From positions 1 through 22,697 of the IMG/VR virus record IMGVR_UViG_3300028920_000283: a DNA stretch of 22,697 nucleotides. One strand, given 5' to 3'. The notes below the pieces were generated by a model. That model saw only the letters and a program-made list of their open reading frames with translations. It was not told the origin of the DNA and searched no databases. Numbering within the stretch: position 1 is the stretch's first letter; each line of letters begins with the position of its first letter. Positions 8,115 through 21,555 of the stretch are shown here, piece by piece. Source of the stretch: a virus. Made by a program: the position numbers and the translations under genes.

Positions 8115-9224
8115 ATGTCAACAGTTGTTGGAACCTTATTAATTTTAGGTGAAGATTATAAAACTACTGTTTCTGTTGCTGACATTGATGTAAATGGTCA
8201 GAATATTTATGTGACTTATATTGATGGTAGTGGGAATCTTAAATGTAAATATACAAGTATTATTCCCGAAGTAGATGGTTCTTTGCCTATTATTATGTCT
8301 GGGTGTCATGTGGATTACGACGAGTCGTCTAGTTCTGAATCTAGTTCTAGTTCGAGCGAGTCTAGTCCGTCTAGCCCATCATCCGAATCCAGTTCGAGTT
8401 CTAGTGTCTCTAGTCCATCGTCAGAATCTAGTTCGAGTTCTAGTGTCTCTAGTCCATCGTCAGAATCTAGTTCGAGTTCTAGTGAATCTAGTCCATCGTC
8501 AGAATCTAGTTCGAGCTCTAGCGAATCTAGTGAGTCTAGTCCATCATCCGAATCTAGTTCTAGTTCTAGTGAATCTAGTCCATCGTCAGAATCTACTTAC
8601 AGCGAATCTAGTGGGTCTTCGGAATCTAGTTCAAGTTCTAGCGAATCTAGTCCATCGTCAGAATCTAGTTCAAGTTCTAGCGAATCTAGTTCTAGTGAGT
8701 CTAGTCCATCGTCAGAATCTAGTCCATCATCCGAATCTAGTTCGAGCGAATCTAGTCTATCGTCAAAATCTAGTTCGAGTGAGTCTAGCGAATCTAGTCA
8801 GTCTAGTCCATCGTCGGAATCTAGCTCAAGTTCTAGCGAGTCTAGCTCAAGCGAGTCTAGTCCATCGTCCGAATCTACTTACAGCGAATCTAGTAGGTCT
8901 TCGGAATCTAGTGAATCTAGTTCAAGTTCTAGCGAGTCTAGCTCAAGCGAGTCTAGTCCATCGTCAGAATCTAGTTCAAGTTCTAGCGAATCTAGTCCAT
9001 CGTCCGAATCTAGCTCAAGCGAGTCTAGTCCATCGTCAGAATCTAGTTCAAGTTCTAGCGAATCTAGTCCATCGTCGGAATCTAGTTCAAGTTCTAGCGA
9101 ATCTAGTCCATCGTCAGAATCTAGCTCAAGCGAGTCTAGTCCATCGTCAGAATCTAGTTCAAGTTCTAGCGAATCTAGTCCATCGTCGGAATCTAGTTCA
9201 AGTTCTAGCGAGTCCAGTCCGTAA
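8115..9224 (+). CDS. Serine-rich repeat protein with small N-terminal domain
   Basis: The protein has 369 residues with a strong RBS (AAGGAGG) and an upstream late promoter. Residues 1 to about 69 are an ordinary, probably beta-rich domain (alternating Val/Ile/Tyr, single Cys at two sites). From residue 70 onward it is essentially Ser, Glu and Pro in SSSSSSESSPSSE modules, ending at ...SSP. Two Tyr-bearing breaks (STYSESS) occur 94 codons apart. There is no signal peptide, membrane segment or LPXTG-like signal. Late expression with fibre genes suggests a virion surface protein whose N-terminal domain attaches to the particle and whose tail is exposed (inference). The repeat is similar in composition to bacterial serine-rich-repeat adhesins, which are O-glycosylated; the adjacent glycosyltransferases make this plausible here. 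No homologue of the N-terminal domain is recognised. Confidence 0.85.
   Translation: MSTVVGTLLILGEDYKTTVSVADIDVNGQNIYVTYIDGSGNLKCKYTSIIPEVDGSLPIIMSGCHVDYDESSSSESSSSSSESSPSSPSSESSSSSSVSSPSSESSSSSSVSSPSSESSSSSSESSPSSESSSSSSESSESSPSSESSSSSSESSPSSESTYSESSGSSESSSSSSESSPSSESSSSSSESSSSESSPSSESSPSSESSSSESSLSSKSSSSESSESSQSSPSSESSSSSSESSSSESSPSSESTYSESSRSSESSESSSSSSESSSSESSPSSESSSSSSESSPSSESSSSESSPSSESSSSSSESSPSSESSSSSSESSPSSESSSSESSPSSESSSSSSESSPSSESSSSSSESSP
8322..9221 (+). repeat. Serine-rich coding repeat array 2
   Basis: About 900 bases of degenerate 39- and 18-base modules. The closing part repeats a block of TCNGAATCTAGTTCAAGTTCTAGCGA type several times almost unchanged. A marked break, TCTACTTACAGCGAATCTAG, occurs at 8592 and again at 8874 (282 bases apart), showing a higher-order duplication. 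Confidence 0.85.
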
Positions 9225-11439: not shown

Positions 11440-11763
11440 ATGGCAGATAAAGAAATTCTGTATGAAAAGATTGCTGAAATCAGCGAACAGAGAGAAGATT
11501 TGATCAAAAAAAATGATAAACTGAAAAAACAGATTAAGGATTATTATTCGAATCTTTATGACGATTGCTGTGATTTAATTAAAGTTGTTGTTGAGAGAAT
11601 TGATTTGGATGAAGAATCTGAAATAGACGAAAGAGAAAAATCGACCGAAGAATTGATTATAAAAGGTTTAACAGATGCTATTAAAAATCGTGCTAAAGAA
11701 TTGGGAATTAGCCCAAAAGAACTTGCCAAAAAGGTTGCAAATAAAATTGGTGTCGGGGCTTAA
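11440..11763 (+). CDS. Small coiled-coil protein of unknown function
   Basis: The protein has 107 residues, preceded by GAGGTG. Residues 1-40 show a heptad-like pattern of Ile/Leu with Lys/Glu, predicting a coiled coil. A Tyr/Asp/Cys stretch follows (YYSNLYDDCCDLIKVVVERI), then a charged linker. The last 35 residues form a basic helical segment (IKNRAKELGISPKELAKKVA) resembling a small helix-turn-helix-like or DNA-associated element. I do not recognise the family. Position after a late motif and before the portal region suggests a minor head or assembly protein. Confidence 0.6.
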   Translation: MADKEILYEKIAEISEQREDLIKKNDKLKKQIKDYYSNLYDDCCDLIKVVVERIDLDEESEIDEREKSTEELIIKGLTDAIKNRAKELGISPKELAKKVANKIGVGA

Positions 11764-11789
11764 AACAACTGACTTAAAGGAATTTTAAT

Positions 11790-12443
11790 ATGTCTAAATT
11801 TCAACCGGCTTATGATAGAGCTAAACAAGATGTTAAGAGAAACAAGATTCCAGCAATAAGGGATCAAATTTCTGAATTGGAAACTAGATTGAGACAGACT
11901 ACTGATCTAGATATGAAAAAATCTATTCAGGCCGAAATTAAGTCTCTACAGATCAAAATGAAATCTATTCGTAAAAACGATCCGGTAAAAGAAGAAAATC
12001 TTGAAGAAGCTAAAAAAGGTTTATCTGCGACTAAGGATAAATGGATTTCTAAAATTGGTGGAAATAAGAATGAAGTTTCGAAGTATGTTGAGCAAAGAGT
12101 TAAAGAACTTGAAGAAAGATATGGGGATGATTATGCCGCCATTGTTGGAACACTTAAGAAAATTCTTTCTCAAAAATATGATGTGAATTTAGACGAAGAA
12201 GCTCAGGGTGCTATAACAACCGGTTCTGTTGGACAATCTACTATGACTACAAGCGATGGTGGAACGGAACCGGCAATCTATGGAAGTTCGCATGTACACG
12301 CAAAGCATATGGGAACATTTAGTCGGCGTGGGGGATATACACCACCTGTTCATGATGATGGCCGAAAAAAGAGCAAAAAGAAAAAGAAGAAAAAGAAAAC
12401 TCAAAAAGAATTTGTTGAATTTTATTTTGAGGAACAAAGTTAA
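11790..12443 (+). CDS. Coiled-coil head-region protein with candidate protease cleavage junction
   Basis: The protein has 217 residues; AAAGGA precedes the start. Residues 1-125 are charged and helical with coiled-coil character, much like scaffold or core proteins. At residues 134-149 the sequence LDEEAQGAITTGSVGQ aligns without gaps to LGEASQGAINYGSLGG at residues 48-63 of the major capsid protein: 9 of 16 positions are identical, and L-x-E is in register. That motif is the expected cut site of gp21-type proteases, so E136/E137 may be cleaved, releasing an 81-residue C-terminal product (inference). This product has HVHAKHMG and a lysine-rich tract (KKSKKKKKKKK) before an aromatic, acidic tail. 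A basic internal head protein is possible; no family is recognised. Confidence 0.68.
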   Translation: MSKFQPAYDRAKQDVKRNKIPAIRDQISELETRLRQTTDLDMKKSIQAEIKSLQIKMKSIRKNDPVKEENLEEAKKGLSATKDKWISKIGGNKNEVSKYVEQRVKELEERYGDDYAAIVGTLKKILSQKYDVNLDEEAQGAITTGSVGQSTMTTSDGGTEPAIYGSSHVHAKHMGTFSRRGGYTPPVHDDGRKKSKKKKKKKKTQKEFVEFYFEEQS

Positions 12444-12444
12444 T

Positions 12445-13575
12445 ATGGTTAAAAATCGAGAAGATTTTTTGAAAGAGTCTGAAAAAATATTTGGTAAAGA
12501 ATACGATTATTCTTTAGTTGTTTATAAAAAGTCTGTAATACCAGTTAAGATTATTTGTAAAAAACACGGTGTTTTTTCAAAGAAACCAAATAAACATTTA
12601 CAGGGGCAGGGATGTCCAATTTGTTCAAAATTAAAAAAAGGAAAAAGATTAAGTTTAGATATTTTTGTTCAAAAAGCCAAAGAAGTTCATAATGATAAGT
12701 ATAATTATGAAAAGGTTAAATACAAAAATAATAGAAGTAAAGTTGAAATAATATGTCCTATTCATGGTTCTTTTTGGCAAAGACCAAACGATCACTTGAT
12801 GGGCCATGGTTGTTATGAATGTGGTAAAAATAAGAATATTGAAAAATTGAGAATGACTAAAGAAGAGTTTGTTGAGAAATCTAATAGAATACACCAAAAC
12901 AAATACGAATATTCTTTAGTAAATTATGTTAATAATTCGACAAAAGTATGTATAATTTGTCCTGTACATGGAGAGTTTTGGCAAAGACCTATTCATCATT
13001 TAAATGGGTGCGGTTGTCAAGAATGTAAAAAAGAAAAGATATCTTTGGCAAATGTAAGTTCTAGTTTTGATTTTGCTAATAAATCTTATAATTTGTTTGG
13101 TAATAAATATAGTTATGCTTATGTTGATTATAAGAATAGTAAAGGTAAAGTATGTATAGTATGTCCTATTCATGGGGAGTTTTGGCAAAGACCAAACGAT
13201 CACTTAATGGGACACGGTTGCCCAAAATGTAATCAGTCTAAAGGAGAAACGCAAATTGAAATGTGGTTAAAATCCAATGGTATAGATTTTGAGTATCAAA
13301 AAGTTTTTGAAAATTGTTTTAATAAGTCATCTTTACCTTTTGATTTTTATCTTCCAGATTTGAATACGTGTATTGAATATGATGGAATTCAACATTTTGA
13401 GCCGACTTGTTTTGGTGGTATGGATTTATATGAAGCCACTAAAAATTTAAATCAAGTTAAAGAAAATGATGAAATAAAGAATAGTTTTTGTAATTTAAAT
13501 AATATTAAATTGATAAGAATTAGTTACTTCGAAAATTTGAAAGAAAAACTTAATTCTTTTATAAAAGAGGTATAA
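12445..13575 (+). CDS. Homing-type endonuclease: four zinc-binding repeats + Vsr-like nuclease
   Basis: The protein has 376 residues. The frame stays open further upstream, but ATG 12445 lies 1 base after the preceding stop and has TGAGGA upstream. Four repeats of 66-68 residues each carry CxxHG...CxxC (first Cys at 38, 104, 172 and 240), three of them with FWQRP, suggesting zinc-binding DNA-contact modules. Residues from about 290 resemble a Vsr/EDxHD-type nuclease: FDFYLPDL with D300, then IEYDGIQHF with E311, D313 and H317. These match known catalytic arrangements of phage free-standing homing endonucleases. The gene fits exactly between the coiled-coil protein and the portal gene, and its last bases include AGAGG, the apparent RBS of the portal. 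Low GC and AT-rich codons contrast with the capsid genes. Confidence 0.75.
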   Translation: MVKNREDFLKESEKIFGKEYDYSLVVYKKSVIPVKIICKKHGVFSKKPNKHLQGQGCPICSKLKKGKRLSLDIFVQKAKEVHNDKYNYEKVKYKNNRSKVEIICPIHGSFWQRPNDHLMGHGCYECGKNKNIEKLRMTKEEFVEKSNRIHQNKYEYSLVNYVNNSTKVCIICPVHGEFWQRPIHHLNGCGCQECKKEKISLANVSSSFDFANKSYNLFGNKYSYAYVDYKNSKGKVCIVCPIHGEFWQRPNDHLMGHGCPKCNQSKGETQIEMWLKSNGIDFEYQKVFENCFNKSSLPFDFYLPDLNTCIEYDGIQHFEPTCFGGMDLYEATKNLNQVKENDEIKNSFCNLNNIKLIRISYFENLKEKLNSFIKEV

Positions 13576-13576
13576 T

Positions 13577-15436
13577 ATGGCAATTGATCTTTCGAAAATA
13601 TTTCTTTTTAATAGGTTTGCTGAGTATTTTAAAAAAGCTAGACCTGAGGAAGAAAAGAGAGAAAGTGAAGAAATAGATAATAGTCAGGGTGTATCACAAG
13701 AAGAAATTGATCTTGCGAATTTCATTAATTACGATTATCTTTCTAATCCCGGATCTGCTATTACATACGTTGGTATTCAATTCGAGCAATATTTTGGAAG
13801 TAAGAGAGGACGTATACAAAAATATCGTCAAATGTCAAGATATCCTATTGTTAATGACGCATTAAATCAGATATGTGATGATGCTGTCGTCGACAATCCA
13901 GAAGGCAATGTTCTTAATCTTGAAATTGTTGAAGAAATTCCAGAACACATTGAAGACGAAATCAGAAAGATATGGAAGTATTTGACTGTTAATGTTTATA
14001 AGTTCAATGAAAGAGGATGGGATTTATTTAGAAAGTGGTTAGTTGAAGCCGAGCTTTATGTCGAACTTGTTTTGAATGATGATGGTGATGATATTATTGG
14101 TATTAAGATTTTACCTTCTCATACCATAATGCCGGTTTATGAAGAAAATAAAATTAAAGCATATATGCAAGTTAATGCAAATTCCCCAGAAGCAGTAAAA
14201 GGCGTTGATCATGCACAGCAAGGAAACGTGTCATACGCTCAGAACACATCTTATACTCCTGATGAACCCAATAGTATTATTTTTGATAAAGACCAAATTG
14301 CTTATGCAAACTATGGATCGTATGGGGAAACTTTTCTTGATGTAAGAGGGTTTCTTGAATCAGCTATTAGACCGTTTAATCAACTTAATAACATGGAAGA
14401 TGCTATTGTTGTTCATAGATTGGTAAGGGCTCCACAAAGAAGAATATGGAACATTTATACTGGTCGTATGCCGAAAGGTAAAGCAGACGAATTTGTAAAA
14501 CAGTTGTCTAATAGATACCGAAAAAAGATAATTTATGATTCAGAAACTGGCGCAATGAACTCCGCGCAAAATGTTCAATCCTTGACCGAAGACTATTGGT
14601 TTACGAGAGACATTAATGGGAACGGTACGACGGTTGATACGATTGGTGGAGAATCAAACTTTAGTGAAATGGATGATGTGAAATATTTTCAAGAGAATCT
14701 TTACAAATCTCTTATGCTTCCCCGTTCTCGTTGGGAAGATCCTACTTCTTCAATGTATGCGTCTGGTAAATCTGGTGAAATTCAAAGAGAAGAAATCAAG
14801 TTTGCGAGGTTCGTTGAAAGATTGCAAAGAAGATTTAAGTATATTATTTTAGATCCTTTTATTACTCTTATGAGGCTTCGTGGAATTGATGAAAGATATG
14901 TGGATCAAAATATATATAATATTCAGTTCACAAAGTCGAACTTGTTTAAAGAGTATAAAGAAATGGAATTGATGGAAACGCGTTTGTCAATTCTTGGAGC
15001 AACTTCTGAATTCATTTATAATCCAACTGAAAACCCAACTGGATTCTTTGCTCCAGAGTTTGCTCTTAAGAAGATGTTCTTAATGAACGAAGAAGAATAT
15101 AATTGGAATAAAGAACTTATGGATAAAATTAAACCAACTGATGAAGAGTTGGCGGCACAACAGGCAGCTGCTAGTGAAATGGGTGGAGGTTTTGGTGCCG
15201 AAGCCGGTGGTGAGTTTGGGGCCGAGCCGGGCGCCGAAGCCGGGGTTGAAATGGGTGGTGAGGTTCCTGGCGCGGGTGCTGCACCAGAAGTACCACCAGA
15301 AACTCCTGAATCGATGAAATTTAGCATAGGCGATAATGATTCTCAAATTTTGAAAGAATGGCAGACATTAGATTCGTCTATTAAGGATAGATATAAGGAT
15401 AAAAATATCAGGAAGCAATTTAAATCAAAAAAATAA
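13577..15436 (+). CDS. Portal protein, T4 gp20-like
   Basis: The protein has 619 residues (T4 gp20 has 524). Shared landmarks include KYRQMSRYPIVNDALNQICD near residues 80-100, EDAIVVHRLVRAPQRRIWNI, the AD...NRYRKKIIYDSETG stretch, and DDVKYFQENLYKSLMLPRSR. The ring it forms at one capsid vertex nucleates prohead assembly, conducts DNA during packaging and later joins the neck. The C-terminus is unusual: residues about 525-580 are rich in Gly, Ala, Glu and Pro (GGGFGAEAGGEFGAEPGAEA), followed by a charged tail. It begins one base after the endonuclease stop, with the RBS inside that gene. The position before gp67/68-, gp21-, gp22- and gp23-like genes matches T4. Confidence 0.92.
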   Translation: MAIDLSKIFLFNRFAEYFKKARPEEEKRESEEIDNSQGVSQEEIDLANFINYDYLSNPGSAITYVGIQFEQYFGSKRGRIQKYRQMSRYPIVNDALNQICDDAVVDNPEGNVLNLEIVEEIPEHIEDEIRKIWKYLTVNVYKFNERGWDLFRKWLVEAELYVELVLNDDGDDIIGIKILPSHTIMPVYEENKIKAYMQVNANSPEAVKGVDHAQQGNVSYAQNTSYTPDEPNSIIFDKDQIAYANYGSYGETFLDVRGFLESAIRPFNQLNNMEDAIVVHRLVRAPQRRIWNIYTGRMPKGKADEFVKQLSNRYRKKIIYDSETGAMNSAQNVQSLTEDYWFTRDINGNGTTVDTIGGESNFSEMDDVKYFQENLYKSLMLPRSRWEDPTSSMYASGKSGEIQREEIKFARFVERLQRRFKYIILDPFITLMRLRGIDERYVDQNIYNIQFTKSNLFKEYKEMELMETRLSILGATSEFIYNPTENPTGFFAPEFALKKMFLMNEEEYNWNKELMDKIKPTDEELAAQQAAASEMGGGFGAEAGGEFGAEPGAEAGVEMGGEVPGAGAAPEVPPETPESMKFSIGDNDSQILKEWQTLDSSIKDRYKDKNIRKQFKSKK

Positions 15437-15455: not shown

Positions 15456-15502
15456 TATTAAGACACTTAATAATGTACTATAGTGTTTGTGAAGGAGGAG
15501 TT

Positions 15503-15682
15503 ATGAAATCAGTTATAAAGAGAGTTCTTGCCGGAGATTGGGCAAGCTTGCAAACAGATGTGGAGAAGATGGCTGCTGATAAGGTTAAAGCCAAGGTTGA
15601 CGAAAAGAAGTTTGAAGTACTTGCTAAACTTAATAAAATCGATGTTGAGAAACAAAAAGAATCGATGACCGCTTCTAATTAA
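15503..15682 (+). CDS. Small prohead core protein, gp67/68-like
   Basis: The protein has 59 residues. A longer frame begins at 15473, but GAAGGAGGAG lies just before ATG 15503, which is preferred. The sequence is short, charged and helical (MKSVIKRVLAGDWASLQTDV then Lys/Glu/Asp-rich), like the small prohead-core proteins gp67 and gp68 of T4 and relatives. Identification rests mainly on the location between portal and protease and on length and charge; sequence similarity in this family is weak. It should help form the internal scaffold and be degraded by the protease at maturation. It begins the transcription unit controlled by the late motif at 15447. Confidence 0.68.
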   Translation: MKSVIKRVLAGDWASLQTDVEKMAADKVKAKVDEKKFEVLAKLNKIDVEKQKESMTASN

Positions 15683-15698: not shown

Positions 15699-16352
15699 AT
15701 GAAACTTTTAACGGAATTTGTCTCTTTTGATAAGCTTGAGGTTATCAAAGAGGAAGAAGAAGGAAAGAAAGTTTTTAGATTGAGAGGCCCCTTCTTAGAA
15801 GCAGAGGTGAAGAATAAAAACGGTCGTGTTTATTCGAAAGATATTCTAGTTCGCGAAGTCAATGATTTTGTGGAATCCAAGATTAAGAAAAATCGGTCTA
15901 TGGGCGAATTAGACCATCCAGAAAATCCTCAGATTAATTTGGAAAGAGTTTCTCATATTATTGAAGAACTTAAAATGGATGGTAATATTGGTCTTGGTAT
16001 TGCAAAACTTATTGATACGCCGATGGGGCGTATTGCAAAGACTCTTGTGGACGAAGGTGTTATTGTAGGAATGTCTACTCGTGGAGTTGGAACTCTTGAT
16101 GGTGAAACTGTTAAGGAAGATTATAAACTTATTACGGTAGACATTGTAGCCGACCCATCTGCGCCGAACTGTTTTGTAGAAGGTGTGTTGGAAAATAAGG
16201 AATTTGTTATTGATGGTGACCAGATTGTTGAGGTTGCTGTTGAAAACCTCAAGAAAAAGGTTGAGAAAAAATATGACCCTAAGTCTATGTCAAGTCATGT
16301 CTTAAGTTATATGATGGATTTTATACAAGAAATCAGGGATAAGAAAAACTAA
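15699..16352 (+). CDS. Prohead maturation protease, T4 gp21-like
   Basis: The protein has 217 residues (T4 gp21 has 212). GELDHP gives H73, GMSTRG gives S126 and VDIVADPSA gives D148 or D152, matching the His, Ser and Asp sites of the S77/U9 family serine proteases. LEAEVKNKNGRVYSKDIL near the start is the usual N-terminal strand that leads the fold. The enzyme sits inside the prohead, is activated by self-cleavage, and cuts capsid, scaffold and core proteins, usually after L/I-x-E. A good example of such a site, LGE/A, is present in the capsid protein at 17258. Location between core and scaffold genes is as in T4. Confidence 0.93.
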   Translation: MKLLTEFVSFDKLEVIKEEEEGKKVFRLRGPFLEAEVKNKNGRVYSKDILVREVNDFVESKIKKNRSMGELDHPENPQINLERVSHIIEELKMDGNIGLGIAKLIDTPMGRIAKTLVDEGVIVGMSTRGVGTLDGETVKEDYKLITVDIVADPSAPNCFVEGVLENKEFVIDGDQIVEVAVENLKKKVEKKYDPKSMSSHVLSYMMDFIQEIRDKKN

Positions 16353-16419: not shown

Positions 16420-17223
16420 ATGAGTAAGATTACGGAGAAGATTAAAGAAACAATGACTCCCGAAGACCTTAAGGTTTTTGAAGCAGCCGTCGAAAAGATG
16501 ATTGCTCAGAGAGTCGCCTTGAAGGAAGAAGAAATCAAGGCTAAATATGATGAGTTGGCTGAGGAATATGTTAGCAAGAAAGTTGGTGAGGAACTTGAAG
16601 CTGCTAAGGCTGCTCTCATTGAGGAATACGATGCGAAGCTTAAGAATATTGAGCAGAAGGTCGTAACCAAGCTTGGTTCCTTCCTTGATCACGTTATTGT
16701 TGAGCAGATTTCCGATGAGTCTATCGAGAAGCTCGCAATTAACGAAATTGCAATGCCAGTTGTAGAACAGATTAAGAAAGTCTTTGCGACCAATTATGTT
16801 GAGCTTGATTCAGATGGTTCTGCTCTTCTTAAGGACGAGCGCGAAAAGAATGCTCAACTTGAGAAAACTTTGTCTGATGCTCAGTCTAAGATTATGGAAG
16901 CCGAAGAAAGACTTGAGAAGTCTGCAACATTCTTGCTTATTTCTGAAAAGACCGAAGGTCTTACAAAAACTCAGAAGCAACGCGTTGCAAAGATGTTTAA
17001 GAACAAGCGTTTTGAGGATGTTAAAGAAAACATTGATACCTTTGTTGAAATGGTGAAGGAATCGGTCGAGCCAAAACCAAAGACAAATGAAAGTGACAAT
17101 GGAACGATTGACACGATCATTACTGAGGAAGATAACTTGGGCGAAGACAAGCCATCTGTCAACGAAGAAAAAGAAGAATTCACGTTTGCTGAAAGAGCAA
17201 ACAGATACATGGATGAAGATTAA
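16420..17223 (+). CDS. Prohead core scaffold protein, T4 gp22-like
   Basis: The protein has 267 residues (T4 gp22 has 269). It is highly charged with long helical and coiled-coil stretches (residues 15-85 and 130-170), and has few aromatics. The later region with FLLISEKTEGLTKTQKQRVA and the acidic C-terminus ending in AERANRYMDED resemble T4-type scaffolds. It should fill the prohead, guide capsid shell assembly and be digested by the protease. AGGAGGAGC lies before the start. Codon use shows more C/G-ending codons than the endonuclease genes, as expected for an abundantly made protein. Confidence 0.88.
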   Translation: MSKITEKIKETMTPEDLKVFEAAVEKMIAQRVALKEEEIKAKYDELAEEYVSKKVGEELEAAKAALIEEYDAKLKNIEQKVVTKLGSFLDHVIVEQISDESIEKLAINEIAMPVVEQIKKVFATNYVELDSDGSALLKDEREKNAQLEKTLSDAQSKIMEAEERLEKSATFLLISEKTEGLTKTQKQRVAKMFKNKRFEDVKENIDTFVEMVKESVEPKPKTNESDNGTIDTIITEEDNLGEDKPSVNEEKEEFTFAERANRYMDED

Positions 17224-17257: not shown

Positions 17258-18637
17258 ATGAGTCTTGCATTAATTAAGAAATGGGAACAGGCTGAAGGTA
17301 AGATGTCCATTAAGGATATCAAGGACAGATACGTTAAAGAAAACCTTGCAACTCTTTTGGAAAACCAAGAGAAGAAGGACTTTAACGGTCAGGAAGTTCT
17401 TGGTGAAGCTTCACAGGGTGCCATTAACTATGGTAGCCTTGGTGGTTACACCGATTCGGCTGCGGCAACAGATTCGTGGCTCTTCCGTCCTATCGCTCTT
17501 GCACTTGTAAGACGTACCTTCCCTGACCTTTTCGCTAACAAGGTCGTTGGTGTACAGGCCATGTCAACTCCGGTTGGTTTGGCATACGCCATGAGAGTTG
17601 TTTATGATGATGATAGTGGAAACGAAGCAGCTTGGGACAGAGTTCCGGAATACGGTGGATACACCGGTTCGGACACTGGCACATCTGCAACGCTTGCCGG
17701 TAGTCATAACAACACATCTGCTGATTCCGGTACTTATGATACATCGGGTACTGGTCAAACCACTTCTGCTGGTGAAGCTTGGACTATTGACGATCGTTGC
17801 AATGTCGCCGAGTCTGCTGTAGCCGGTTGCGGTGACTATCCACAGCTTAAGATGAGAATCGATCAGCTTGCTATTACAGCAAAGACCAGAAAGCTCGCAG
17901 CCAGCTTCAGCCTTGAAGCCGCACAGGACGTAAAGGCTATGCACGGTATTGATATTGAGCGTGAAATGGTCCAGTTCCTGCAGTATGAGGTAACTGCTGA
18001 AATGGATAGAGAACTTATTTACAGAATGAAAACTGCTGCTGTTAACTCATCTAATGGTGGTGAAACAATTTCCGCTATTGATCTTACTGGTAGTGGAACT
18101 GGTATCGATGGTAGATGGTCTGGTGAAAAATACATGAACATCGTTTCGTCTATCGTATATCAGGCTAACAAGATTGCTATTTCCACAAGACGTGGTCCTG
18201 GTAACTTTGTTATTGTTTCTCCGGGTATCGCTACGGCGTTGCAAGCTGCTGGTCACCAGTGGGTTGCTTATAACCAGAATGTTAACGCAACTCAGGTTAT
18301 GGCTGCTATTGGTAAGCTCAATGGAACACTTGATGTTTACCGTGATCAGTATGCGAGAACGGAATATGCTATGATTGGTTATAAGGGTCCTGGTATCAGT
18401 GACTGTGGTATTATTTTCAGTCCTTACATCATGGGTCTGACCAACCGGGCAATCCATCCTAATGACTTCACTCCAAGAGTAGGTGTTATGAGTAGATACG
18501 CTGTTACTGATACCTTGCTTGGAAGCGGACGTTATTACAGATTGATTCCGTACTTCAATCTTCAGAAGCTTATTCCTGGCGCAACCACTTCCAACTTGCC
18601 TTCTGGCTTTGGTTCTGCTGGTTATCCGGGTGCCTAA
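17258..18637 (+). CDS. Major capsid protein, T4 gp23-like
   Basis: The protein has 459 residues (T4 gp23 has 521), preceded by GAGAGGAGG. Residues 1-50 form a charged, helical propeptide. L48-G-E50 followed by ASQGAINYGSLGG is a likely cut by the gp21-like protease, so the mature chain would begin at A51. WLFRPIALALVRRTFPDLFA and GVQAMSTPVGLAYAMR are conserved T4-type capsid features. Later segments such as RGPGNFVIVSPGIATALQAA and NDFTPRVGVMSRY also fit the HK97-like fold of this family. It forms the hexamers of the shell. Codon and GC use are higher and more biased than in neighbouring endonucleases, consistent with high expression. A strong hairpin terminator follows. Confidence 0.95.
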   Translation: MSLALIKKWEQAEGKMSIKDIKDRYVKENLATLLENQEKKDFNGQEVLGEASQGAINYGSLGGYTDSAAATDSWLFRPIALALVRRTFPDLFANKVVGVQAMSTPVGLAYAMRVVYDDDSGNEAAWDRVPEYGGYTGSDTGTSATLAGSHNNTSADSGTYDTSGTGQTTSAGEAWTIDDRCNVAESAVAGCGDYPQLKMRIDQLAITAKTRKLAASFSLEAAQDVKAMHGIDIEREMVQFLQYEVTAEMDRELIYRMKTAAVNSSNGGETISAIDLTGSGTGIDGRWSGEKYMNIVSSIVYQANKIAISTRRGPGNFVIVSPGIATALQAAGHQWVAYNQNVNATQVMAAIGKLNGTLDVYRDQYARTEYAMIGYKGPGISDCGIIFSPYIMGLTNRAIHPNDFTPRVGVMSRYAVTDTLLGSGRYYRLIPYFNLQKLIPGATTSNLPSGFGSAGYPGA

Positions 18638-18762: not shown

Positions 18763-20439
18763 ATGAGACAAAATGAAGAATTTGTTTGTCCTGTTTGTCA
18801 AAAGAAATTAAATAATCTTCGGTCTGTTGTTAATCATATAAGATCGCATAAAGATTATACTCAACAGTCATATTATGATAAGTTTTTTAAGAAAGAGGGC
18901 GAAGGTTTATGTAAACTTTGTAATCAACCAACAAAGTTTTATGGATTTCAAAAAGGGTATGCTGAATTTTGTTCCCACTCATGCTGTAATAAATATATCA
19001 ATCAGAATCCATCTGTTCGTAAAAAGATTAAAGATACTTTAGAAAGAAGATATGGTAGTCGAAATTATGTCAATGTTGATGGTATTAAAAATACGAAGAA
19101 GAAAAAATATGGATATGAGTATTTTCCAAAGGAAGTAAGTCCTCTTTCACCAGAAAAAGAGTCGGCTAGAGTTCAAAAAATACTTTTAACTAAAGAAAAA
19201 AGATATGGAAAAAAAGGTTATTGTAACATTGAACAGATTAAGGAAACCAAAAGAATTAGATATGGGTTAGAAGAATATAATAATTCAGAACAGATTAAGG
19301 AAACATGGTCTAAAAAATCGTTAGACGAAAAGAAAGAAATTAAAAATAAAGCTTTAATATCTAAAAGAAAAAGAATAGCTAATAATTTAGAGAAAATTAT
19401 TAGGTCAAATAATTTGAGTATTAATTTAGTTGAAGTATGGTCTAATAAGTATAAGTTTGTTTGTAAAGATTGTGGTAATGAATTTGAAATTATGCCACAA
19501 CTGTTTAGAAAAAGATGTAAAGAAAACCGAATAATTTGTACACAATGTAATCCTTTATATAATAATCAAATCTCTTTTGATGAAAAAGAACTTTTAAAGT
19601 TTATTAAATCCATATATTCGGGGGAAATTTTAATTAACGATAAGAGTATAATTAGCCCTTATGAACTGGATATTTATTTACCAGATTTGAAATTAGCTTT
19701 TGAGTATAATGGGTTATATTGGCATTCAGAATTATATAAAGATATGAATTATCACTTAAACAAAACGGTTGCGTGTGAAAAAAACCATATACATTTAATT
19801 CATATCTACGAAGACGATTGGATTATGAAGAATGAAATTGTAAGAAGTCGAATTAAGAATTTGTTTCATTGTTCAGATCAAACAATATATGCTCGAAAAT
19901 GTGAAGTTCAAACCGTTTTGGGTAAAGAGGCAAGAAAGTTTTTGAAAGAAAATCATTTGCAAGGATATGCTCCAGCTAAAATTAATTTAGGGTTATTTTA
20001 TAATAATGAAATGGTTTCGTTGATGACATTTACGACTTTAAGAAAAAATTTAGGTAATAAATTAACAACAGACAAATGGGAAATGCTTAGATTTTGTAAT
20101 AAGATTAATACGACAGTTGTTGGTGGAGCTAGTAAAATATTATCTAGTTTTATTAAAATAAAAAACCCAAAGATTATTGTAAGTTATGCTGATCGAAGTT
20201 GGACATATATTGAAAATAATTTATATAAATCGATTGGAATGAAATTTGATTTAAGCACAAAACCTGGTTATTGGTATATTGTTGATGGAGTAAAAGAAAA
20301 CAGATTTAAGTACCGAAAGGATGTTTTAGTTTCTAAAGGTTTTGGTGTTAATAAAACAGAAAAACAAATAATGTTTGAAATTGGCATGTATCGAATATAT
20401 AATTCGGGAAATTTAAAGTATATATGGAATTCAGTATAA
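18763..20439 (+). CDS. Large homing-type endonuclease (zinc finger + Vsr-like nuclease)
   Basis: The protein has 558 residues. The N-terminus has a C2H2-type finger (C9, C12, H25, H29), then a second Cys cluster (CKLCNQ ... FCSHSCCNKY). Short repeats follow (RYGxxxYxNxxxIKxT at about 106, 147 and 166), probably DNA-contact modules. A zinc-ribbon-like pair (CKDCG ... CTQC) precedes the nuclease core: YELDIYLPDLKLAFEYNGLY with D303 and E314, then W320 and H321, resembling the Vsr/EDxHD fold. The C-terminal 180 residues (YARKCEVQTVLGKEARKFLK onward) match a domain common in phage homing endonucleases. No RBS better than AAGGATTG is seen. Free-standing, not inside an intron as far as visible: flanking genes look intact. 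Confidence 0.78.
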   Translation: MRQNEEFVCPVCQKKLNNLRSVVNHIRSHKDYTQQSYYDKFFKKEGEGLCKLCNQPTKFYGFQKGYAEFCSHSCCNKYINQNPSVRKKIKDTLERRYGSRNYVNVDGIKNTKKKKYGYEYFPKEVSPLSPEKESARVQKILLTKEKRYGKKGYCNIEQIKETKRIRYGLEEYNNSEQIKETWSKKSLDEKKEIKNKALISKRKRIANNLEKIIRSNNLSINLVEVWSNKYKFVCKDCGNEFEIMPQLFRKRCKENRIICTQCNPLYNNQISFDEKELLKFIKSIYSGEILINDKSIISPYELDIYLPDLKLAFEYNGLYWHSELYKDMNYHLNKTVACEKNHIHLIHIYEDDWIMKNEIVRSRIKNLFHCSDQTIYARKCEVQTVLGKEARKFLKENHLQGYAPAKINLGLFYNNEMVSLMTFTTLRKNLGNKLTTDKWEMLRFCNKINTTVVGGASKILSSFIKIKNPKIIVSYADRSWTYIENNLYKSIGMKFDLSTKPGYWYIVDGVKENRFKYRKDVLVSKGFGVNKTEKQIMFEIGMYRIYNSGNLKYIWNSV

Positions 20440-20853: not shown

Positions 20854-21555
20854 ATGTTATTATCTGAAAAAGTATTGGTACCAATTAATGGTAGAAATTG
20901 TAAACATTTTGAAAATTTAGGATATGATATCCCAAGATATAAAGATAATAATTATAGATTATGTATTAAACGTGGAACGGTTATAGAAGTTAATGTTAAT
21001 GATTTATTACAAAATTCAACTGTTAAGGTTGAAAGAAAATGTGATGTTTGTAAAGAAGTCTCTGAAGTATCATATTATCAATATAGAGATGTTTGTAAAA
21101 AATGTTCTACATCTGGAGAAAGAAATCGTAATTGGAATGGTGGTATTTCTAAAAAGAAAAATTATTGCGAATGTGGTAGACAGATTCATTGGAAATCTAA
21201 TAAATGCTTAAAATGTTTTCAGAAGGGAATTAATAACACGAATTATAATCATAATTTGTCCAATGAGGAAAGAAATTTATCACGAAGTATATCTGGTTAT
21301 ACTAATTGGAAAAAAGAGGTATTGATAAAATATGATTATACTTGTCAGAAATGTGGTTTTAATGGTAATTTACATGATGGTAATTTAAATGTACATCATA
21401 TTGAAAATTATTCTTATCGTAAAGATAATAGAGTAGATTCTGATAATGGAATTGTATTTTGTAAAGAATGTCATAAAAAATTTCATAGAAAATATGGGAA
21501 GAAAAACAATAATAAAATTCAACTAAATGAATTTTTAGGGGTAAATAATGGCTGA
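20854..21555 (+). CDS. HNH homing-type endonuclease
   Basis: The protein has 233 residues. Two zinc-binding Cys groups (CDVCK ... CKKC, then CECGR ... CLKC) occupy residues 65-125. The C-terminal HNH domain has CQKCG, then VHHIENY with H181/H182, N198 in SDNGIVFCKECHKKFHR, and H207/H211. The combination is that of free-standing phage HNH homing endonucleases. The start has only a weak RBS. Its stop overlaps the neck gene by 8 bases, and GGGG in its last codons seems to act as that gene's RBS. AT content is visibly higher than in the neck gene, consistent with recent insertion. Confidence 0.83.
   Translation: MLLSEKVLVPINGRNCKHFENLGYDIPRYKDNNYRLCIKRGTVIEVNVNDLLQNSTVKVERKCDVCKEVSEVSYYQYRDVCKKCSTSGERNRNWNGGISKKKNYCECGRQIHWKSNKCLKCFQKGINNTNYNHNLSNEERNLSRSISGYTNWKKEVLIKYDYTCQKCGFNGNLHDGNLNVHHIENYSYRKDNRVDSDNGIVFCKECHKKFHRKYGKKNNNKIQLNEFLGVNNG

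Follow-up and report, generated by a model that had tools for sequence, protein, structure and literature searches.

The product of a 217-aa ORF in an uncultured T4-type phage copies the stretch of the major capsid protein (MCP) that is cut and rearranged in head maturation, and it is therefore probably a head component, cut, as far as its sequence indicates, by the same enzyme as the MCP; it may also take the same place in the shell as the MCP arm. Our preferred reading, to which we assign a probability of about 60%, is that this is a prohead (head-core) protein made beside the portal, with a predicted gp21-type cut after E136 and a product of ~81 residues that would be found in the head. Together with its homologues in uncultured T4-type phages it forms a new family, probably of head proteins, which current annotation misses. 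The proteolytic maturation of T4-type heads is textbook material, but to our knowledge the protease substrates in such heads outside cultured phages are mostly unknown. A portal-adjacent, non-capsid protein that copies the MCP cut site and the arm following it, and co-varies with them, offers a handle on protease recognition with so few determinants, and on what fills or marks the portal-facing capsid positions with disordered N-fists.

The window, i.e. the whole stretch of DNA analysed (22,697 bases), is the complete IMG/VR virus record. A head module of T4 type makes up its right half; from portal (gp20) it runs through a small ORF, protease (gp21) and scaffold (gp22) to MCP (gp23). A gp21-type protease gene (Peptidase_S77) is present in the same genome as the 217-aa ORF. 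The features referred to below are as follows.

11790..12443, + strand: 217-aa ORF, belonging to a probable head-protein family not classified before (homologue set; no Pfam, PHROG or PDB family)
11790..12182, + strand: N-terminal helical domain, residues 1-131, presumed propeptide, varying or replaced between homologues (AlphaFold2 helices)
12189..12233, + strand: gp23-like maturation junction, residues 134-148 (profile, MCP alignment and shuffle tests), with the proposed cut between E136 (12195-12197) and E137
12291..12329, + strand: second conserved element HVHAKHMGTFSRR, residues 168-180, profile-aligned with the MCP N-arm start FRPIALALVRR
12369..12398, + strand: lysine run, residues 194-203, a basic stretch kept in most homologues
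12405..12434, + strand: C-terminal amphipathic helix KEFVEFYFEE, residues 206-215 (AlphaFold2 helix 205-214; signal-profile match)
13577..15436, + strand: portal protein gp20 (PF07230, E 3e-101; phrog_213)
15473-15682: separate small ORF after the portal, in the gp67/gp68 position
15699..16352, + strand: prohead protease of gp21 type (Peptidase_S77), the presumed cutting enzyme (PF03420, E 1e-24; phrog_207)
16420..17223, + strand: scaffold protein gp22 (PF25623, E 7e-15)
17258..18637, + strand: MCP gp23 (PF07068, E 1e-84)
17399..17446, + strand: MCP maturation junction, residues 48-63, predicted to be cut after E50 (aligned with T4 gp23 E65)
17474..17515, + strand: start of the MCP N-arm, about residues 73-86 (DSWLFRPIALALVRR region), partner of the second element

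A single ORF with treble-clef zinc-finger domains, starting at 12445, lies between the 217-aa ORF and the portal gene and looks like a homing endonuclease. The head gene cluster is broken up by three endonuclease-like ORFs in all, at 12445-13575 (treble-clef/DUF723), 18763-20439 (no Pfam) and 20854-21555 (HNH). In the left part of the window, long Ser/Glu/Pro-rich repeats (SSSESSPSSE) at 1-880 (open at the record start) and 8115-9224 flank a cluster of glycosyltransferase-like, radical SAM, sulfotransferase-like, FkbM methyltransferase and cupin genes; these are possibly a surface protein and its modifying enzymes. One scan of bacterial genomes with the MCP gave no match.

The first-pass annotation had aligned residues 134-149 of the 217-aa protein (LDEEAQGAITTGSVGQ; DNA 12189-12236) without gaps to MCP residues 48-63 (LGEASQGAINYGSLGG) with L-x-E in register. 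The alignment is confirmed, and places E136 in register with the T4-type cleavage glutamate, MCP E50, equivalent to the known cut at T4 gp23 E65 (PMC7136217). This is the best 16-mer match between the two proteins, with a BLOSUM62 score of 40; shuffling the 217-aa protein reaches this score in 17/5000 trials, and shuffling the MCP in 15/5000. Against the MCP, 13 other ORFs in the window score 20-35. As a single-pair match, with p ~0.003 before multiple testing, it is suggestive.

Used as a direct query, the 217-aa protein found no relative in viral contigs, phage records, Pfam, PHROGs or PDB (weak low-complexity matches only), and its AlphaFold2 model gave no match with Foldseek. Homologues were reached only through the neighbouring portal and MCP genes of viral contigs, and a profile of their C-terminal halves retrieved further, more distant ones. 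The resulting family has 19 sequences, that of the window and 18 homologues from related uncultured phages, which sit at the portal gene wherever the contig covers that end. In these relatives, whose portals are 48-82% identical to that of the window, the family gene is directly upstream of the portal, with a gap to the portal match of <50 bases in 12 loci and an endonuclease or small ORF in between in others. The N-terminal parts of the homologues, 46 to 201 residues long, mostly have no sequence relation to one another; in locus L003 residues 1-70 of the window protein are retained and followed directly by the junction. The N-terminal domain is swapped between relatives, and the junction and tail stay. 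The conserved junction pattern is (hydrophobic)-x-E-[ED]-[AS]-x-[GA]-x-I-T-T-x-x-x-G, and the other conserved parts are a [YF]-x-P-K-x-G-x-x-x-R element, the lysine run and the C-terminal helix.

A conserved phrog_2086 gene (~140 aa, NVDTIxSYILxKKLVTPI, function unassigned in PHROG) is located between a 107-aa ORF and the family gene in relatives (L001 8088-8558, L003 191-628, L009 9208-9660), and is missing in the window (11763-11790). In the Kyanoviridae relatives S-SSM7 and C48C1 the tail tube gene is directly before the portal, with no annotated counterpart of the family gene there.

The match to the MCP junction is secure because a family-wide profile finds it. An HMM of 15 homologues, with no MCP included, was run on 11 whole phage records, the largest of 264 kb; apart from the family gene its sole match was the MCP at the junction, in five records (E-values 3.8e-6, 5.1e-6, 2e-5, 8.5e-5 and 0.03). 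Profile-profile alignment with hhalign extends over 41 columns, comprising the junction, the N-fist region and the N-arm start (E 2.9e-4, or 1.5e-4 without T4; probability only 40-52%), with a score of 33.8 against a maximum of 18.2 in column-shuffled controls once terminal-gap artefacts (6-8 columns, inspected) were set aside. In the MCP alignment the junction falls at T4 gp23 E65/A66, and E50 and G54 are invariant, T4 included. The junctions also co-vary, as those of MCP and small protein are more alike within a genome than in swapped pairs (P' side permutation p 0.0004; rank 2 of 120 at clade level), for example in L076 (MCP TEASTGSINTGSLGG, small protein NEMSTGGITTASVGG) and L087 (MCP REAAFGSINTGTAGG, small protein QEDVGSITTTSAGG); this is supportive rather than decisive because the clades are related. 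The second element, tested alone, is weaker than the junction and not significant, and matches MCP 404-413 slightly better than the N-arm; its assignment to the N-arm start follows from its colinear position and from a weak trend among same-genome pairs (p 0.014).

An N-terminal propeptide followed by a basic product had been proposed for the 217-aa protein, and structure prediction and charge count agree. The AlphaFold2 model (mean pLDDT 71) has helices over residues 5-130 (pLDDT mostly 80-95), disorder over 131-204 and a helix at 205-214. The helices end at residue 130, and the proposed cut after E136 therefore sits just behind the folded domain. The predicted product has 81 residues, is disordered and carries a charge of +6 (+9 without the last 12 residues); among the homologues counted, the net charge of the predicted mature product varies from 0 to +13.

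Whether the junction is a protease site is a more mixed picture. T4 gp21 cuts core proteins after the short motif L/I-x-E (PMC9026906), and the window protein has LDE before the proposed cut. The expectation that homologues keep this motif holds for the P1 Glu (19/19) and, in most, for a hydrophobic P3 (L/I/V/F in 15/19, with four homologues lacking it), but a strict L/I-x-E is present in only 6/15 aligned homologues; Val is common at P3 and absent from the MCP sites seen, and several homologues carry L/I-x-E after the junction. The first-pass suggestion of a gp21-cleaved prohead component is likewise borne out by the genomic setting, a T4-type genome with its own gp21-type protease, gp20, gp22 and gp23 and a gene directly before the portal in relatives. 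It fits less well with P1', which is nearly always E/D in the family (M in one, S in one) and A/S/T in nearly all MCPs seen, and with the proposed propeptide, in which L/I-x-E is not enriched beyond composition (23 vs 20.6 expected) as it is in T4 core proteins. Overall, the family-wide analysis turns a one-pair observation into a family feature, and the earlier observation is real, its conclusion reasonable and its interpretation partly supported.

The similarity to the MCP continues at least 12 residues past the cut, and ~40 by profile. Most of the residues that family and MCP share follow the cut, suggesting that the protein mimics the gp23* N-fist in addition to carrying a protease site; the emphasis moves from the protease motif to a copy of the mature MCP N-terminal arm together with a targeting-like C-terminal helix. 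In T4 the N-fist comprises gp23 residues 66-91, contacts four subunits, moves from the inside to the outside upon expansion, and lacks order in the five portal-facing gp23 copies (PMC9958956, PMC7136217). By analogy, a portal-linked protein starting with an N-fist-type segment may dock at the portal-facing N-fist sites.

We tentatively entertain, as the best placed of the alternatives, that the shared segment serves mainly to mimic the structure of the gp23* N-fist/N-arm and that the small protein, cut or uncut, docks onto the shell, for example at places that lack an ordered gp23 N-fist, such as portal-facing or pentamer sites. This would account for why conservation extends to the N-arm element and is weaker ahead of the cut than behind it, and agrees with the contacts and portal-facing disorder of the T4 N-fist, the position of the family gene next to the portal, and the co-variation of the two junctions; gp21, moreover, needs no P' sequence, as T4 gp23 (LTE-AEIGGDHG) and gp24 (LRE-STTTNSNS) have none in common. 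It is weakened by the second element, with its lack of significance alone and local preference for MCP 404-413, and by the N-fist position itself, which is taken from alignment to T4 gp23, to which the MCP is 29% identical. A more speculative and rather doubtful version is that the small portal-linked protein mimics the MCP N-fist and, once cut by the same protease, inserts itself at N-fist sites in the shell, e.g. at the portal vertex, where the capsid N-fists of T4 are disordered, tethering its basic tail or targeting helix there.

We consider it somewhat unlikely that the similarity reflects only convergent or inherited protease recognition, with an extended site for the gp21 of this lineage kept by both substrates. 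The P1 Glu and hydrophobic P3 held in common and the same-genome co-variation with the MCP would be expected if it did, yet protease recognition alone is insufficient because the similarity runs past the cut, which the T4 gp21 substrates gp23 and gp24 do not share. The specificity of T4 gp21 is short (L/I-x-E; PMC9026906), P1' differs between the small proteins and the MCPs, and the putative N-terminal signal cut sites of a 264-kb relative (YFTE-KKKK, YLSE-SVEG, YLQE-AEEK) have no P' motif. That this is not a head protein, being instead a portal-linked neck/tail assembly factor or an unrelated basic coiled-coil protein that matches by chance, draws on the modest single-pair p value, the lack of an annotated homologue and the low-complexity matches, and is very improbable given that the family profile matches the MCP alone in whole records and that profile alignment and co-variation agree.

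Under the preferred reading of a cleaved head-core protein, the 217-aa protein would be recruited into the prohead core and cut by the gp21-type protease after E136, as gp23 is after E50; the N-terminal helical domain would be removed and the ~81-residue product would stay in the head and would start with a segment of the type from which the gp23* N-fist forms. The parts of the protein are a replaceable helical N-terminus, a copy of the gp23 junction and N-fist/N-arm start, a lysine-rich disordered stretch and a C-terminal targeting-like helix.

The C-terminal helix resembles capsid-targeting-like signals found at the N-termini of a relative's other proteins. In the 264-kb relative, 20/485 greedily called ORFs start with an M-x-F-x-E-H/Y-Y-F/L-x-E-like sequence, versus 0.9% at internal methionines. 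These N-terminal signals resemble MKTYQEFIAE, the capsid targeting sequence of T4 (confirmed in the T4 record), which sends internal proteins to the head core (PMC9026906). On a signal profile built from the 264-kb relative and a 224-kb relative, most C-terminal tails of the window clade outscore all 876 C-termini of those two phages, and L004 and L006 have tails that rank in the top 1%. The profile does not pick up the tails of other clades (AIEYIDKMFD, NNYIDKLFE), which are by eye like MKHIEYINKLISE of the 224-kb relative. The equivalent cut Glu of the C-terminal helix is not conserved in the family.

We also note several other genes with signals of this type. A small protein, MPNPKxYxxxxxFMxAC...QAVAQCLxMW, adjoins the family gene (L001 9240-9428, L006 8747-8992, L010 4194-4385) and ends in a similar tail (FVEHYF, FKEFIDNYL, FVDYYL). 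In G003, a 141-aa protein (201308-201733, locus L136) that starts with MKHIEYINKLISE and has a lysine-rich stretch is encoded ~2 kb before the family gene, and resembles a T4 internal protein with its targeting signal. The 264-kb relative (G001, the record of L009) codes for some 15-20 proteins whose N-termini carry a capsid-targeting-like motif, many of them clustered (1181, 231460-234149 and 255472-260748; loci L112, L124 and L125), including an ART-PolyVal ADP-ribosyltransferase (E 2.9e-25) and AAA_33 kinase-like and PolyA_pol-like proteins; these proteins may therefore be head-packaged and injected, like T4 Alt.

Among known systems, the T4 core proteins gp67 and gp68 are likewise small head-core proteins encoded beside the portal, but after it, whereas the family gene comes before; homology to them was not detected (hhalign probability 0.1-0.2%). 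In the giant phage SPN3US, gp53, gp54, the portal and the MCP have long N-terminal propeptides that are removed after A-x-E by a T4-gp21-like prohead protease, and by description these are like the presumed propeptide of the family; the parts of that account available to us do not describe a small protein copying the MCP junction (PMC10052503). The T4 internal proteins IPI, IPII and IPIII are similarly small, basic and located in the head core, are expected gp21 substrates, as is predicted for the family, and have a targeting-like amphipathic motif. Their signal is N-terminal, 10-19 residues long and removed (PMC9026906), whereas in the family the targeting-like helix is C-terminal and the putative propeptide has 46-201 residues; the 217-aa protein has a long helical domain at its N-terminus in place of a short targeting sequence. 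Unlike T4 gp23, the family has no HK97 fold (the 217-aa protein has no Pfam Gp23 hit, and its model is all-helical, then disordered), and it has an unrelated helical propeptide, a basic tail and an acidic P1'. It nevertheless follows the plan of the gp23 N-terminal region (propeptide, cut at E65, N-fist 66-91, N-arm), with a P1 Glu, then a Gly/Ile/Gly pattern and, at the profile level, a colinear N-arm-like element.
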